This document shows positions 4,511 through 62,705 of a stretch of 64,000 nucleotides of DNA, piece after piece. Origin of the DNA: Bacillota bacterium (GTDB lineage: Bacteria > Bacillota > SHA-98 > Ch115); contig JABLXA010000004.1 of the NCBI GenBank assembly GCA_013178415.1, positions 62,001 through 126,000 on the forward strand, written 5' to 3'. The notes beneath the pieces were generated by a model. The model was not told the DNA's origin. It searched no databases and saw only the letters and a program-made list of their open reading frames with translations. Numbering within the stretch: position 1 is the stretch's first letter; every line of letters starts with the position of its first letter. The translations under genes and the position numbers were made by a program.

Positions 4511-4555
4511 GATGTCGACAACTCCTTGGTCCAATCATCAGAGAGGGGAATACGC

Positions 4556-4990
4556 ATGCTCTATGTAATCGTCTTTATGAGTGGTGCGGTTTTGATGTCT
4601 TTGGAAATGATCGGGAGCAGGCTTCTAGCCCCTACTTTCGGCACATCCATTTATGTATGGGGTGCCCTGATCACCGTCGTCATGACAGCCCTTACGCTTG
4701 GCTATTATCTGGGGGGAAAAGCTGCCGACCGGCGACCAGACTCTCGAGCCATGGTACTGATCCTAGGCGTTGCCGGGTTATTAGTAGGATTCCTCCCATT
4801 CTGGTACATCCCAGTTAGCTACTCCCTTGCGATGCTTGGACCGCGCAGCGGCTCGCTTGTGGCTGCGTTCGCCTTCTTCTTTTCTCCATTGCGGCGGACC
4901 AATAGAGTGCTGCCATGCTGTCTGGAGAAAGCACATAATCACTTTGGTCGGCGTCCTATTTGTTGGGAAGGATTGATCAGTGGATCTTAA
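4556..4990 (+). pseudogene. Truncated spermidine-synthase-like membrane protein
   Basis: The first 110 residues match the membrane part of fused MFS/spermidine synthase-like proteins: MLYVIVFMSGAVLMSLEM, GSRLLAPTFGTSIYVWGAL, and TLGYYLGGKAADRRP. Three to four transmembrane helices can be seen. After FAFFFSP the frame becomes Arg/Cys-rich and unlike the family, then stops. The rest of the membrane domain and the whole SAM-binding methyltransferase-fold domain are missing. The start at 4556 has GAGAGGGG seven bases upstream. This is a 3' truncation, probably by deletion or rearrangement into the following degenerate DNA. Confidence 0.7.
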
Positions 4991-6325
4991 CTGAGTGTGG
5001 CTTTTGCCGCCAGTGAATCCAATTTCCTCGCATCCTCAAGGCGCAGATGATACCGGAAAAAGCGATGAGAATTCCCTATTCGGTATAAGGGTGATAGGCT
5101 TGAAGGCATGATATATCAATGCATGCACTCTCTCCTCGCGGCACACTACAGAAGGGTTCCCACATACTGAAATGACGAGCTTTGGACGTATAGTAAGAGC
5201 TTTACTCCAATCGATGGGTTTTGTGAGAAAATCGTCTAATTAGCCCTACCCTACCATATTGAATTGCTTTGGTCGTGGTCAGAAGGCTATCCGAATCGAA
5301 TTCATTTCCTTCCTCTTATCGAGGGCCCATCATGGTTATCGAGGTAGCCGATCACGGACTGGTACTGACGGACGTATGGACCTTCCACCTCAAAGGCACA
5401 CTCGCCCTCTCGTCCCTCGGGTCCATGCCATATGGCATAATCGCCCGGGCCGGACACGTCGGGCTCACGCCAAGGCTTCATAGACAACTCTCCCTTCTCT
5501 TCGAATCGTTTTGATGCAGGCTCTCTCATGCCGCATGGGGCAAGACATAAACTGTGACAAGATTGAGGCCTATGTAGCTTCTTATATGCAAGGGGTGGGG
5601 CTCCGAGAGAATATTGGAAATAAGGCTGGATTACGTAGGGCCCCAGAGAAAAATCTGCTATTCTGTGGGGTATTAAGCGCAATCTCACATGTTTTTAAGG
5701 CATGCCAGACCAAGATAGGTTTATATCGTCGTGAGCCATAGCGGTGAGCTGGACGACAACATGTCAAAGATGCTTAATAAGGAGAACTTCGGCAGGAGGA
5801 GGAACATCGAATTGCCATGTATGAGGACCTTCTTGAGCGAGGTAGGATAGCAATAAAAATCCCGGGTACATCTATTATCCTTAAGGAGGCGGTACATTTG
5901 GCCAGAGCGGTTTCTGGAGTGTCTTGAAGTCCCAATTTTGGTAGGGTTGATGTATGGCGTAAAAGCCATTTATCTACCGGGGAAGATTTTGAGTGGATCA
6001 TCAAAGATAGCCCAGATGGTAGATAATCACCCTATTGATGGGTTGGGTTTTGCTAATCATTTGCTAATGTACTATCTGAAATGACCTATCACGCGACGGA
6101 CAGATTAACATAGCGTACTGCTTAAAATGCAGCTAGTAGTAAACTCGAAAACTCGGCTCGTTCAATTTACATTTATCTGTAAAAGAGGCTATAAAGTGAT
6201 TGTAAAACTGATTGATTAAGTTGTTGATGATCTATTTCTACAGGGAGGCTCAAAATCCTTCTTCTTGGATGATAAAAACCGAGAAATATATGTGGCGACT
6301 ACATTATCTCCACTAAAAGCACGGG
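4991..6325. other. Degenerate DNA with short coding remnants, no intact gene seen
   Basis: I find no gene of recognisable family here. Three stretches look like worn coding sequence. On the minus strand 5481-5302 encodes a 59-residue frame with a plausible GGGAGA site. On the plus strand about 5785-5927 reads ELRQEEEHRIAMYEDLL and continues in a conserved-looking way before a stop. About 6220-6350 reads SKSFFLDDKNREIYVATT in a frame with an upstream stop. None can be tied to a function. Confidence 0.4.
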
Positions 6326-6877
6326 TGACAAGCTCTTGGCCAGATCTCTAAGGTGGGTGGCGAGTTATTGGTCATCCCAAACCGCTGGTGACGAGTTTTC
6401 GGTCACCCTAGACCGATGGTGGCGAGTCTCTGGGCAGGTTGCGCGCGGAAGTGACTGAGAATTCGTCAGCTTAGACCGAGGGTGACGAGACTGTAGGCAG
6501 GTCCCGCACGGAAGTGGCTAAAAATCCGTCAGCTTCCCCGCCAAGGTGGCGACATTCCCGTCAGGTTGGGATGATTTTGGAAAAGTCTGGGTCTATCTCA
6601 TCTTGAGCTAGCTAGAATTTAGGCAGGTTTTTCTCAAAGGTGGCCAAGATTTCGTCGGCCTCTGGTCCGTGCCGGCAGATTTCTCGCCACCTTGCCCTCA
6701 AATTGGAAGATTATAGGTTATGATTATCCATAATAAGGGATTTTGTAGCATATATTGGCCTGGAGTGGCGAGATTTTGGCCAGTTTGGACGCGGAAGTGG
6801 CTGGAATTTCGGCAGCATCTGCTCTCAAGTGCGAAAATCCTACCAGGCTCTACTCTCCGATGGCCAGAACCTAGGAG
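6326..6877. repeat. Array A: 18 helically phased TGRC-N9-GYCA dyads
   Basis: A 17-bp dyad (four bases, nine-base spacer, four bases) recurs with left halves at 6326, 6358, 6389, 6420, 6452, 6483, 6515, 6547, 6578, 6609, 6641, 6673, 6704, 6734, 6766, 6798, 6830 and 6861. Steps are 31 or 32 bp with one of 30, averaging 31.5 bp. Clear examples are TGAC-GAGTTTTCG-GTCA at 6389 and TGGC-GAGATTTTG-GCCA at 6766. The units at 6704 and 6734 are AT-rich and atypical, and the same two units are atypical in arrays B and C. The unit at 6830 has lost one spacer base. The region has stops in all frames, and a non-integral codon period rules out protein repeats. Confidence 0.85.
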
Positions 6878-7088
6878 ATTGCTCGAAAACTCTGACGACC
6901 TCTATATATTGTGGGATATAGCTTCTTTGGTAGGGTTTCCGAGCAGATTCCTAGGTCTGGGTTAATAAAACGCCAATTGTTCGGTCTGCCTCGCCTGCTT
7001 GGGCTGCCAGATTTTAGCACAGGTATATATGCGACAAAGGCCCTTGCAGACAGCGGGCCCGGAGAATGGTTAGCTGGGGGGCGCTACC

Positions 7089-7613
7089 TTGCTGATGCGC
7101 ATCGCAGACTTTTTCCTGACTATCCCGAGCCTTCCACTCATGATAGTGCTTGCAGCCTATGTGAGAGTGGATAGCGCCCCCACCATGGCCTTGATTCTGA
7201 GCATAACGGCATGGGCAGGACTTTCAAGGGCGATCCGCGCACAGGTGCTTTCTCTGAAAGAAAGGGAATTCATAGAAGCCGCCAAGGTCCTGGGGCTGCG
7301 CAAGAGCCACATTATATTCAGGGAACTCTTGCCCAATATGGGTTCATATATAGCCACCAACGCCATACTTGCCTTTACGGGGGCCATGTATGCCCAAGTG
7401 GGGCTGTTTTTCCTGGGTGTGGTGCCATTTTCTTCTCTCAATTGGGGAGTCATGCTGAATTTCGCCGTATCTCAGGGCGGGGCCCTGTACACATTGAGGA
7501 GCGTACATTACCTGCTGGCGCCAATTGTATGTATCGTCCTTTTGCAGACCGGTGCCGTCCTTTTCGCCCGGGCAATGGAGATATTATTCAACCCGCGTCT
7601 TAGGGTTCGATGA
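7089..7613 (+). pseudogene. Oligopeptide-type ABC transporter permease, N-terminally truncated
   Basis: The 174-residue frame is the C-terminal two thirds of a DppC/OppC-like permease. It has MRIADFFLTIPSLPLMIV, the cytoplasmic EAA loop (EAAKVLGLRKSHIIFRELLPN), GAMYAQVGLFFLG, and the final helix ending LFNPRLRVR. The family normally runs to about 280 residues with an N-terminal helix and extended region. Those are missing, and an in-frame TAG at 7071-7073 closes the frame upstream. The break lies about 200 bp downstream of array A. The stop overlaps the start region of the ATPase gene that follows, so the remainder of a five-gene operon is left without its binding protein, first permease and part of this one. 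Confidence 0.75.
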
Positions 7614-11804: not shown

Positions 11805-11919
11805 GTTCTCACCCCTGAAAACCATCATCGGGAGCCGCAGACGCAGCAGCTGGAATGTCGCCCCGCCACTGGGCATTGGAAGCTGCAGCACAGCAGCTGG
11901 GATGTGGCCCTATCGCTGG

Positions 11920-12060
11920 ATGGACACCCGTGCCGCCATGGCGGCACCATCGGGGCCGCAAAATAACGCCCGCTATTTACTGGATAGACCCCCATGCTGC
12001 TGTCGCAGCGCCGTCAGAAGGATGGAAATCCCCCGAAGCGGACCCCACTATTTTCTGGGT
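11920..12060. repeat. Two copies of a dispersed palindromic repeat, one entering hisA
   Basis: Two adjacent copies of an approximately 65-85 bp repeat lie here. Its core is GTGCCGCCATGGCGGCAC (11930-11947), a perfect palindrome in the first copy and a worn one (ATGCTGCTGTCGCAGCGCC) in the second. Flanks read TAGACCCCCATG on one side and GGATGGAAATCCCCC then CTATTTTC on the other. Further copies lie at 27.36-27.80, 29.74, 44.10 and 62.07 kb. The second copy supplies the last 20 or so codons of the HisH-HisA gene. Confidence 0.8.
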
Positions 12061-25999: not shown

Positions 26000-26120
26000 G
26001 ACGCAGCATGACAGGGGTATGGATACTCCTCCCGGCGGACGCAGTATAGCCGGGGATGGTGATGCCGTCCCGTCGGACGCGACCTTGCTGCAGGTCGCTC
26101 TGTGATCCGAGGCCCTCGGG
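26000..26120 (+). repeat. Dispersed repeat sharing GGATACTCCTCCC with 40.34 kb
   Basis: The segment GCAGCAT...ATGGATACTCCTCCC..CGGACGCAG, followed by CTTGCTGC and a CCTCGGGCTAT element, recurs at 40335-40430 in the same orientation. It is non-coding in both places. Here it is partly duplicated, with GGACGCAG occurring twice. Confidence 0.6.
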
Positions 26121-26504
26121 CTATATGGCCTCGGATCAAAGCCGCTGGGACGATACCGCCTATATCCGAGTCGCCACCGTTCAGACCAATGCCGATGGGA
26201 TGAGCACCACAACCCCGAGTCTACCGGCTATAGATCAACGTTGCCGGGATGATGCCGCTGGAAGTACATGTAAAGAGACTGTCTACGAGATAGACAATCT
26301 ACTGCGTTTGCTGTCTATAAAACAGGCAGGCTGCCAATGACGCACTCTGAAGCGAGAGCGCCGGTCGGGCCGGCATTAGGGATTACACTGGCGAAGATAT
26401 CGTCACTTTAGACCTAGCATATTCCATAAAATCTCTCATTCCGGATACTTGCCTCCAGAATACTCCATTTGAGACGGGGGTGTTGAATTTGAGGGAAAAA
26501 GGAA

Positions 26505-26621
26505 GGCTGTGGATATGAAGCATCTGTGGACTTATGGATAACCCCTTCGGGGTTACTCAAAGGGTCCACAGATGCTTGGACAACGCTTCGCGTTGACTAC
26601 ATATCCACAATATCCACAGCC
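26505..26621. other. Multi-branched palindromic element, possible ncRNA or cruciform
   Basis: An outer 12-bp stem pairs GGCTGTGGATAT (26505-26516) with ATATCCACAGCC (26610-26621). Alternatively 26508-26517 pairs with 26600-26609. Inside, AAGCATCTGTGGAC (26518-26531) pairs perfectly with GTCCACAGATGCTT (26564-26577) around a hairpin AACCCC-TTC-GGGGTT (26540-26554). A second arm is AACGC-TTC-GCGTT (26582-26594). All stems are exact. ATATCCACA occurs twice on the plus strand (26601-26609 and 26610-26618) and once on the minus strand, each one base from a DnaA box. No neighbour gene explains it. Confidence 0.7.
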
Positions 26622-26700
26622 CCGACGACGCCGATCTGATTTATTGAAAAACAGAGAAAAGGCGAGATCGAGAGAGTTAGTCTTAAAACATTAAGATGAG

Positions 26701-27316
26701 TGGCATAATTTTCGGCACCTGAGGGTAGAGGCCGCCGAAATTCCAGCCACCTCTGCATCCAAGTCGGCTAAAATCTCGCCACCTCCAGCTAAGATATACC
26801 ATAAAGTTCCTTCTTATGGATAATCATAACTTATAATCTTCCAATTCGAGGGCAGGGTGGCTAGAAATTCGCCACTCAGGTCCAGGGGCTGGCGAAATCT
26901 TGGCCACCCTTGAGCAAAACCTGCCTAAATCCTAGCCAGCTCAAGACGAACTTGATCCAGACTTTGCCAAAATCATCCCGACCTGACGAGAATATCACCA
27001 TCCCGATAAGGAAGCTGACAGATTTTTAGCCACTTCTGCGGGGGACCTGCCTGCAGTCTCGTCACCTTCGGTCTAGGCTGACGGATTTTTAGTCACTCCC
27101 GCGCGCAACCTGCCTAAAAGCTTGCCACCCCCGGTTTAAGCTGACGAATTCTCAGTCACTCCCGCGCGCAACCTGCCTAAAAGCTTGCCACCCCCGGTTT
27201 AAGCTGACGAATCTTCAGCTAACTGCGCGCGGGACCTGGCTAGAGACTCATCATCGGCGATTTGATGTGACCGGAAAATCGCCACATGTTTCGAGGAACT
27301 GGCCGAAATATCGCCG
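26701..27316. repeat. Array B: 20 helically phased TGRC-N9-GYCA dyads, inverted copy of array A
   Basis: Left halves lie at 26701, 26733, 26765, 26797, 26827, 26858, 26890, 26922, 26953, 26984, 27016, 27048, 27079, 27111, 27142, 27174, 27205, 27237, 27268 and 27300, an average of 31.5 bp. The reverse complement aligns with array A in register, including the AT-rich unit pair (26797 and 26827, with the same 30-bp step) and the conserved AATTGGAAGATTATA block. Two nearly identical 63-bp blocks (from 27111 and 27174) show recent duplication of a unit pair. No reading frame spans it. Confidence 0.85.
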
Positions 27317-27354
27317 GCTGACCCAGGTCCCGTTCTCTACCCTGAAAATCGATG

Positions 27355-27800
27355 GTGGCCATTTTCATCCGTCCGATGGTGCCGCCGCAGCGGCATGGGG
27401 GTCTACTTTGAAAATAGCTGAGCGCCATTTTCATTTTTCGTTGGTGCCGCCGTGGCGGCATGGGGGTCTACCCTTAAAATGAGCTACCCTTAAACCCACT
27501 TTCCGCATGTATAGTTTACCAAATGGCGTCGTAGCGCGGTTTATGGCCGATCAGAAAATTGTGAAAGGGTTAAGTCGAAATTTTATGCAAACTTTCGAAC
27601 CTAGGTAGCATCGGTAATTGTAGACTGGAATATTCTACATGCAAAATATGGGCTTAAAATGAGCTGCCGCTGTTTTTACGCTCCTGATGGTGCCGCCATG
27701 GCAGCATGAGGGTCTGCCACTGAAAATAGCGGGGGCCGCTTCGGGGGATTTTCATCCTTCTGCTGGTGGTGCCGAGGTAGCATGGGGGTCTACCGAGAAA
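27355..27800. repeat. Cluster of four palindromic dispersed repeats
   Basis: Copies lie around 27355-27415, 27420-27480, 27660-27725 and 27735-27800. Each has TTTTCATCC or similar, then GGTGCCGCC(n)GCGGCATG and GGGGGTCTACC. They are in the opposite orientation to the copies at 11.9 and 29.7 kb. The stretch between 27480 and 27660 shows nothing recognisable. Confidence 0.7.
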
Positions 27801-27936
27801 CTGTGCATGATAATATGGCAGATCCCCATGCCGCTGAGCGGCGCCATTATGCGCCCGGCGAATCGGATACTGCGGATGGATGATGTTCTAAGTCTTGTCA
27901 AGGGGTGATCCTATGGATGATCTTATTATGGTGATC

Positions 27937-29544: not shown

Positions 29545-29734
29545 CTGGATATCAACTCCTTCTGCATGTCTATATGGGATCCGACTCTATTTTTATACTC
29601 GGATCCCATTTTCCCTCCTTTTCATTTTAAGATTTCATCTTTAAGGAATTCTTGCGGATAGATCAACTGGTGGTAAAAAGCCTGCTATAGATTTCCATGA
29701 TTGCGTCGAGATCACCGGACCTCTTGGCTGTTCT

Positions 29735-29825
29735 CAAAGTAGACCCCCATGCCGCTCCGGCGGCACCATCAGGGGGATGAAAATCTCCCGAGGAGGGCGC
29801 CGCTATTTTCGGGGCAGCTAGCTAT
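29735..29825. repeat. Palindromic dispersed repeat copy
   Basis: GTAGACCCCCATGCCGCTCC then GGCGGCACCATC and GGATGAAAATCTCCCG, matching the copy at 11.98-12.06 kb. It ends at the stop of the lipoprotein gene. Confidence 0.7.
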
Positions 29826-40149: not shown

Positions 40150-40334
40150 TGCAATCCCGCCTCGCTTCTTTATAGTCACCACATTAAAGATTCTGTGGAT
40201 ATAACCGAGTCGCACCAAGTACTGATTCTAACATTTTCTACTGATTCTGACATCCTCTCATGGCTAAAGCCATATGTATCACCCATAAGTCTCATCATCA
40301 GGCCTGATGAGAGGCCAGCGATCCCCCTCTGATG

Positions 40335-40432
40335 GGCGCAGCATAGCCAGGGGAATGGATACTCCTCCCGTCGGACGCAGCCTTGCTGCGGGGCTGCTCA
40401 GTGGTCCTCGACCCTCAGGCTATTATGGATAT
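40335..40432 (+). repeat. Second copy of the GGATACTCCTCCC dispersed repeat
   Basis: GCGCAGCATAGCCAGGGG, then ATGGATACTCCTCCCGTCGG and ACGCAGCCTTGCTGC, matching 26000-26120. A CCTCAGGCTAT end also matches. It lies between the divergent MFS and DUF212 genes. Confidence 0.6.
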
Positions 40433-44045: not shown

Positions 44046-44084
44046 GAATATTCACCATCCATATGCCCGCTCATCTACCCCCAA

Positions 44085-44165
44085 AATAGTAGCGCCCTCT
44101 TTGTGGGAGTTTATTCCATCTGATGGCGCTGCGACAGCAGCATGGGGGGTTACATGAAAAATCGT
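44085..44165. repeat. Palindromic dispersed repeat copy between trpF and trpC
   Basis: CCATCTGATGGCGCTGCGAC then AGCAGCATGGGGGGTTACATG, a worn copy of the 65-85 bp palindromic repeat. It ends just before the trpC stop. Confidence 0.6.
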
Positions 44166-48676: not shown

Positions 48677-48708
48677 AAAAAACCTTTCATCCCAACTGGG
48701 ACGAAAGG
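48677..48708 (-). terminator. First T-box terminator
   Basis: CCTTTCGTCCC pairs with GGGATGAAAGG across AGTT on the minus strand, followed by six T. Confidence 0.85.
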
Positions 48709-48988
48709 TAAACTTCCGTGGTGCCACCCAACTAGAGGATACAATCCTCCACTCGTCATAAGGTACAGGCAGTGAGGCTATATTTCTGCCGATACCCTCT
48801 CCTGTTAACGGCGGAGAAATCCGTTGAATCCTACCGGCGCTATCGCCCTCAGATCCACCCTCAGGGGCCCATTCACCATCCGCGTCCTGACCGGACTCAC
48901 ACCAGGCGCCGGCTCTCTTGCAGGCGGCAGGGTGGCTACTTCTCCCCATCACCGGTTTATCTAGCCATATGCCGTATGTTTGAAATCT

Positions 48989-61825: not shown

Positions 61826-62064
61826 GGTGAAAGATTACCTCCCGTTTCGGCGCTATTAGTCTTTTTCTACAGATAGCCAAATATCTCCTTTATGTAATGT
61901 GTGGTTGGCATGGTTCGTGCTAGTTAGAATGGCAACTGAAGGGTAGTCTTCCACGAGACCTGAGGAATCTGGATGCGATGATTTCAAGGACGCTGCAAGG
62001 CCTGATTTCTAGATCACGAAAATTGAGCATCTCAGATCGGTTTCATGCTGGGCAGGGAGTTCGG

Positions 62065-62105
62065 GGTAGTCCCCCATGCCGCCATGGCAGCATGGAAGTC
62101 TATCC
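62065..62105. repeat. Partial palindromic dispersed repeat next to array C
   Basis: GGTAGTCCCCCATGCCGCC then ATGGCAGCATGGAAGTCTA, a fragment of the 65-85 bp palindromic repeat, 13 bp before the first dyad of array C. Confidence 0.6.
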
Positions 62106-62117
62106 AAAAGTATGGGC

Positions 62118-62583
62118 TGGCGAAAATTCCATCACTTTCTGGGCAAACATGGCGAAATCCTCGCCAGCTCAAATCAGGGGTGGCGTGTTTTTAGGCAGGA
62201 TCTGTGTGAAGATGGCGAGGATTTCGGCAGCCTCCTCTCAGAGGTGGCGAAATAGTCGTCAGGTCGGGGCGATTCTGGGAGATCTTGGGTAGATTTTACC
62301 TACAGGTGGCTGAAATCTCGTCAGGTCTTGTCGAGAGGTGGCGGCAATGCCGCCAGTCTTCGTTCCCGGATGGCGAAATCTTCGCCACCTCATGTCCAAA
62401 TTGGAAGATTCAAGGAGGTGATTATCCAGTATAATACAGTTTATGGTATATATTGGGCCAGGGTGACGATATTTCGATCAGGCTGAAGGCAAGACTGGCG
62501 ATATTCTGGCCAGGATGAGGGCAGAGCTGGCGATGGTTTCGCCATTTGCCAGTCTGCGTTCAGGGGTGACGCCATATTCGTCA
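62118..62583. repeat. Array C: 14 clear TGRC-N9-GYCA dyads, third copy of the phased array
   Basis: Left halves at 62118, 62150, 62181, 62213, 62245, 62276, 62307, 62339, 62371, 62402, 62464, 62496, 62528 and 62567, with a weak unit at about 62433. Steps are 31 or 32 bp except the last (39). Six cores are exact palindromes, for example TGGC-GATATTCTG-GCCA at 62496. The AATTGGAAGATT block matches arrays A and B. The last two units lie about 350 bp before polA. Confidence 0.85.
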
Positions 62584-62705
62584 TCTATCTCGATGTTTTT
62601 AAACTAGCTTCTGTGATAATCTTGTCGCACCAGGCGGCTAGCAGCGCGGCGCAAAGAAATATTTTACTAGTGAATTCATCTTCTCGGTCACAAAGAAGTT
62701 ATGCG

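Follow-up and report, generated by a model that had tools for sequence, protein, structure and literature searches.

Repeats found between bacterial genes are usually explained as selfish hairpins, and the iterons of plasmid origins are spaced at about two helical turns. Among the systems that resemble the locus described here, BOX elements carry variable numbers of tandem boxB units (PMC3049150), and the parS site of the F plasmid consists of twelve 43-bp repeats with 16-bp inverted repeats (PMC6238139). Archaeal Lrp-type sites are clustered semi-palindromes on one face of the helix, with a centre-to-centre spacing of two or three turns, and Ss-LrpB has about 100 bp of DNA wrapped round three dimers (PMC2995911). 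The locus considered here, array B, lies in a 64,000-nt stretch of DNA (the window) on contig 4 of a genome of 3.57 Mb in 57 contigs, which may be a metagenome assembly. It had been singled out from its sequence as the inverted copy of another dyad element in the window; the observation as a whole is confirmed, while the interpretation placed upon it is partly supported.

Array B (26701–27316, plus strand) consists of a left arm, an AT-rich core and a right arm. Sixteen recognisable 17-bp dyads of the pattern TGNC-N9-GNCA, plus a weaker one, occupy slots that recur every 31.4 bp (3 helical turns). On the left, dyads start at 26701, 26733 and 26765 and, after a gap, at 26858, 26890 and 26922; past a degenerate slot they start at 26984, 27016, 27048, 27079, 27111, 27142, 27174, 27205, 27237 and 27268, with the weaker dyad at 27300. 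The distance from one dyad to the next is 31, 32, 62 or 93 bp. The 93-bp gap holds the AT-rich core (CCATAAA..TTATGGATAATCATAACYTATAATCTTCCAATT, 26782–26857, plus strand), which fills two unit slots and has a mean column identity of 0.78 across 17 copies; what had been described as an AT-rich pair is this single conserved core of ~76 bp. The right arm (27016–27316, plus strand) is a run of 63-bp dimers (32+31 bp) with alternating unit classes, and one dimer has undergone a fresh tandem duplication (27077–27202, plus strand). Two near-identical 63-bp blocks had been placed at 27111 and 27174. The duplication is real, although blocks in that register are only 53/63 identical; the best match is between 27077–27139 and 27140–27202 (60/63), and an exact run of 59 nt recurs at a lag of 63 from 27091. 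Promoter and terminator content in array B shows no excess over shuffled sequences. Immediately to the left of the array (26505–26621) there is an imperfect inverted repeat in which several words resemble DnaA boxes (TATCCACA/TGTGGATA), and a similar stretch also lies left of the array in copy L021.

When array B was compared with the window's genome, 47 places matched, about 16 of them over a long stretch. Using dyad patterns together with the neighbouring sequence, 26 arrays of three or more dyads were recognised in the regions examined, along with one further remnant of two dyads. They are 400–900 bp in length, all lie between genes and they occur on most large contigs, as dispersed intergenic palindromic modules of the kind seen in REP, BIME and BOX elements. 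Identity to array B divides them into a close subfamily (71–85%) and a divergent one (66–69%). Array A (6326–6878, minus strand) is an inverted version of the array B element and 81% identical to it, the query 26691–27340 matching 6845–6388 on the other strand over 461 bp (blastn, E=5e-113). The inverted relationship given in the original prediction thus holds, although the two are not simply a pair but 2 of the 26 dispersed copies. Array C (62118–62585, minus strand) belongs to the divergent subfamily and has the same slot order and core as arrays A and B. Function need not extend to all copies, as truncation affects several arrays and phase coherence is missing from copy L027.

The window also contains other dispersed repeats. 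A second hairpin family (GGTGCCGCC..GGCGGCATGGGGGTCTACC, about 65–150 bp) is found at 27336–27806, 29727–29812, 11905–12055, 44080–44153 and 62060–62100. A third family (CGGACGCGACC..), which often adjoins the arrays and is also present between atpA and atpG, occurs in the window at 26001–26200 and 40320–40428 and elsewhere at L113 7500–7699, L139 and L141.

The dispersal of the arrays over most large contigs, and their regular tandem dyads arranged as in F-plasmid parS and as expected for ParB/sopC sites, could be read as the signature of a centromere-like or nucleoid-anchoring array, in which a ParB-, Noc- or SopB-like protein would load on the dyads and the dispersed copies would organise or segregate the chromosome. 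We regard this as unlikely: no par genes were recognised by eye beside the arrays, copies sit inside operons, and a genome of the same family presumably segregates normally although it has no arrays. The genes neighbouring the arrays, judged by eye from their translations, show no common theme that would mark a regulon.

The arrays have their internal order in common. With 23 copies anchored at one slot, nearly all can be aligned free of gaps over about 300 bp despite identities of only 60–90%. Aligning the units confirmed the shared order that had been proposed: over the inner 9 nt, identity between copies is 0.64 for units sharing a slot, compared with 0.41 for different slots, and 31-bp units along the slot diagonal are 0.57–0.87 identical. 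The left arm is a module of 157 bp (15 turns), made of three dyads at 32 bp followed by the AT-rich core over two slots; its self-identity peaks at lag 157 (0.44 vs a background of 0.25), and the module is present up to three times, for example in copies L002 and L005. The right arm has a different period. Identity there is 0.62 at lag 63 vs 0.36 at lags 31/32, and each unit is closer to the next but one than to its neighbour (0.67 vs 0.49), an alternation never reached in 2000 shuffles of unit order (permutation p≤0.0005, with or without array B). The alternating classes and the 63-bp dimer of the original prediction are therefore borne out for the right arm, whereas the left arm follows 157-bp modules; likewise, growth by the copying of pairs is not supported as a general rule. 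Most of the array is inherited whole, the fresh 63-bp duplication having arisen locally in copy B. Alternate inversion of neighbouring units, suggested by eye, is unsupported for the dyads alone.

That helical phase is kept, as had been proposed, is upheld with a period of 10.5 bp. A walk that favours 31.4-bp steps served to delimit the two arms of each copy, so the phasing itself rests on analyses in which no spacing was imposed. In an unconstrained search, about 5–14 TGNCN9GNCA sites were found in 860 bp around each main array, far above chance, while the flanks have 0–5 such sites in about 1.1–1.8 kb. For these exact sites in the main arrays, the phase coherence R is mostly 0.83–0.98 at 10.5 bp, copy L027 being the exception. 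The strongest independent evidence for helical phasing is the single array of G009, a genome from another family of the class. Its 13 dyads use another half-site (TGGCWAG) and are arranged in triplets at 32 bp that are separated by gaps of 41 or 52 bp, giving a module of 105 bp (10 turns); over 442 bp, coherence is best at a period of 10.51 (R=0.978). Dyad triplets at 32 bp are common to both genomes, and the modules of 63, 105 and 157 bp mean that three lengths in two lineages all come close to whole turns.

Semi-palindromes held in phase at two or three turns, in a geometry near to the 32-bp triplets, are also what archaeal Lrp clusters display, so that the arrays might be Lrp/AsnC-type operator clusters that wrap DNA. 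The distribution of the candidate proteins makes this quite improbable. Genes with an AsnC domain number one or two in each of the 17 class genomes, with or without arrays; the only one in the window's genome belongs to a class-wide family, and no dyad array lies near an AsnC-domain gene in either that genome or G009. By analogy it is possible that the arrays work like an Lrp operator cluster; that they are one is not supported.

How strongly spacing is maintained can be judged from two other dispersed repeat families of the window's genome, aligned in the same way, which served as indel controls and are few and small. The arrays have 0.013 gaps per mismatch at 80–95% identity and 0.027 at 70–80%. 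The corresponding values are 0.19 and 0.13 for the GGTGCCGCC..GGCGGCATGGGGGTCTACC hairpin family and 0.27 and 0.18 for the 'ddr' family. At 30% divergence, simulating substitutions without indels produced a spurious gap background of at most 0.012. Indels per mismatch are thus about 5–14 times rarer in the arrays than in the hairpin family, as pairwise counts that are not independent. Conservation of bases is concentrated at the dyad ends: across 17 copies, column identity is 0.917 for the outer six dyad bases, 0.654 for the inner nine, 0.619 for the linkers and 0.779 for the AT core. Changes private to a single copy occur at 0.28 per eligible column in the outer dyad and 0.30 in the core, compared with 0.53 in the linkers. 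This depletion suggests that selection may also act on the resident copies, and part of the conservation pattern could reflect a long-lived master copy under selection and not each copy in place.

Each dyad could in principle pair, and some copies lie inside operons where they are probably transcribed, so that the arrays might form chains of small hairpins in a structured RNA. The half-sites show no covariation, which argues against RNA hairpins and is expected of sites for a protein dimer. At no variable position does pairing exceed that in shuffles, and dyad positions 5:13 are complementary less often than when shuffled (0.21 vs 0.35). The folding z-scores of -2.2 and -1.0 are unremarkable, the arrays have no Rfam match, and hairpins would not need 10.5-bp phasing. 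Lacking covariation, an Rfam match and strong folding alike, an RNA element was rejected as highly improbable. Elsewhere in the window a T-box leader (Rfam RF00230, 104.5 bits) is located on the minus strand at 48694–48961, upstream of a trpE-like minus-strand gene.

The arrays have a very narrow distribution. Among 398 genomes sampled from the phylum, the three-dyad pattern occurs in two, the window's genome (G000) and G009, and a looser two-dyad pattern adds one isolated match (G088), which is taken as a chance hit. G001, from the same family as the window's genome, has no arrays. Its atpA-atpG gap is 85 bp, and that of class members about 10 bp, compared with about 825 bp in the window's genome, where the gap holds another repeat and an array. 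Similarly, an array lies between prmC and tsaC in G009, where the spacer of most of its congeners is short. As relatives have no array at either of the two sites compared, the array or a segment carrying it was gained, and there is presence/absence polymorphism at orthologous sites of the kind expected of MITEs. In G008 the prmC-tsaC spacer (L174 878–1500) is occupied by another insert, which has repeats of its own (GGGTTGCCGGTGTTGC) and no such dyads. No DNA similar to the arrays was found in phage and plasmid collections, and an origin from either was rejected. The core pattern has 3 matches in viral_contigs and 23 scattered matches in genome_contigs, none with two neighbouring dyads. The single viral three-dyad match, on a phage-like contig (L172 1–240), is an unrelated simple 32-bp tandem repeat and was set aside as a chance match.

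One copy has moved recently. Array A is part of an 825-bp unit (6133–6957, minus strand) that recurs with 99.76% identity at G000:C8:181k, where the flanks are unrelated. The left end of this unit is a separate hairpin repeat (CCTAGG..CCTAGG), while the right end is a related but weak (15/22) inverted end; this composite (L007/L008) offers the sole inverted end pair among the arrays. Because one side is bounded by a separate hairpin repeat, the hairpin element accounts for this recent mobilisation better than the array does. The hairpin element (CCTAGGAATCTGCTCGGAAAC..GTTTTCGAGCAATCTCCTAGG at 6133–6957), found alone in contigs C9, C18, C32 and C54, seems, together with the related right end, to have moved array A into two loci. 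The region around array A (4526–7613) appears by eye to be decayed, with a truncated ORF resembling the start of a spermidine-synthase-like protein on one side and an ABC permease (DppC-like) without its N-terminal part on the other.

Gains at these orthologous sites, the two near-identical 825-bp copies at unrelated loci and the lack of a consistent neighbour gene would all fit a purely selfish, non-autonomous mobile element, in which the dyads would be transposase or recombinase sites, their spacing would be conserved only in an active master copy, and the chromosomal copies would be functionless passengers. We consider this conceivable, if somewhat unlikely. No terminal repeats are shared across the family, the ends varying from copy to copy, and the MITE signature of common terminal inverted repeats with target-site duplication was not found; a different hairpin repeat borders the one recent duplication; the copies are old and diverged (60–85% identical); and private changes are depleted at the dyads.

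The explanation that we favour, and hold to be probably correct, is that the arrays are a mobile or expanded intergenic element in which the selected feature is a same-face, phase-locked array of 17-bp dyads for a putative dimeric (or higher-order) DNA-binding protein. The dyads are taken as putative protein-binding sites on double-stranded DNA. The protein would occupy the dyads on one face of the helix and build one large complex, with the AT-rich core of each 157-bp module acting as a bend, an unwinding site or the site of a second protein. Protein binding, cooperativity along one face and the copies' part in nucleoid structure, in segregation or in their own spread are what we infer from these features. 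Carried further, the arrays might constitute a lineage-specific chromosome-organising system, equivalent in bacteria to positioned chromatin particles or to dispersed centromeres: at about 26 places the putative protein would assemble into long complexes along one face, wrapping DNA by whole turns (63, 105 and 157 bp, or 6, 10 and 15 turns). This extension is speculative and we think it doubtful. The conserved quantity is helical phase, indels being rare while the linkers drift, which makes the arrays evidence from natural evolution pointing to a large cooperative nucleoprotein complex. The 17-bp dyad, the triplet and the 157-bp module also give defined baits for finding the protein.

Comparison with described systems brings out a mixed relationship. 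With BIME/REP and BOX elements the arrays share a dispersed, non-coding, intergenic and modular organization of palindromic tandem units, but they are long (400–900 bp), keep slot order and spacing to helical phase with rare indels, and have half-sites without the hairpin-type covariation of compensatory stem-loops. Phased repeats beside an AT-rich stretch recall plasmid iteron origins, from which they differ in having about 26 chromosomal copies with no Rep gene noted alongside. Among centromeres, F-plasmid parS offers the closest analogue; both it (sopC) and the arrays have tandem repeats that each contain a dyad of 16–17 bp; the arrays, in contrast, exist as many dispersed chromosomal copies with a 31.4-bp unit, an AT-rich core and no par genes recognised alongside. 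Finally, whereas Lrp-type clusters occupy single control regions and the arrays are repeated, unrelated to a gene set and served by a protein that is only putative, they resemble the clusters of Ss-LrpB and BarR in their semi-palindromes, AT-rich centre, three-turn spacing and groups of three.
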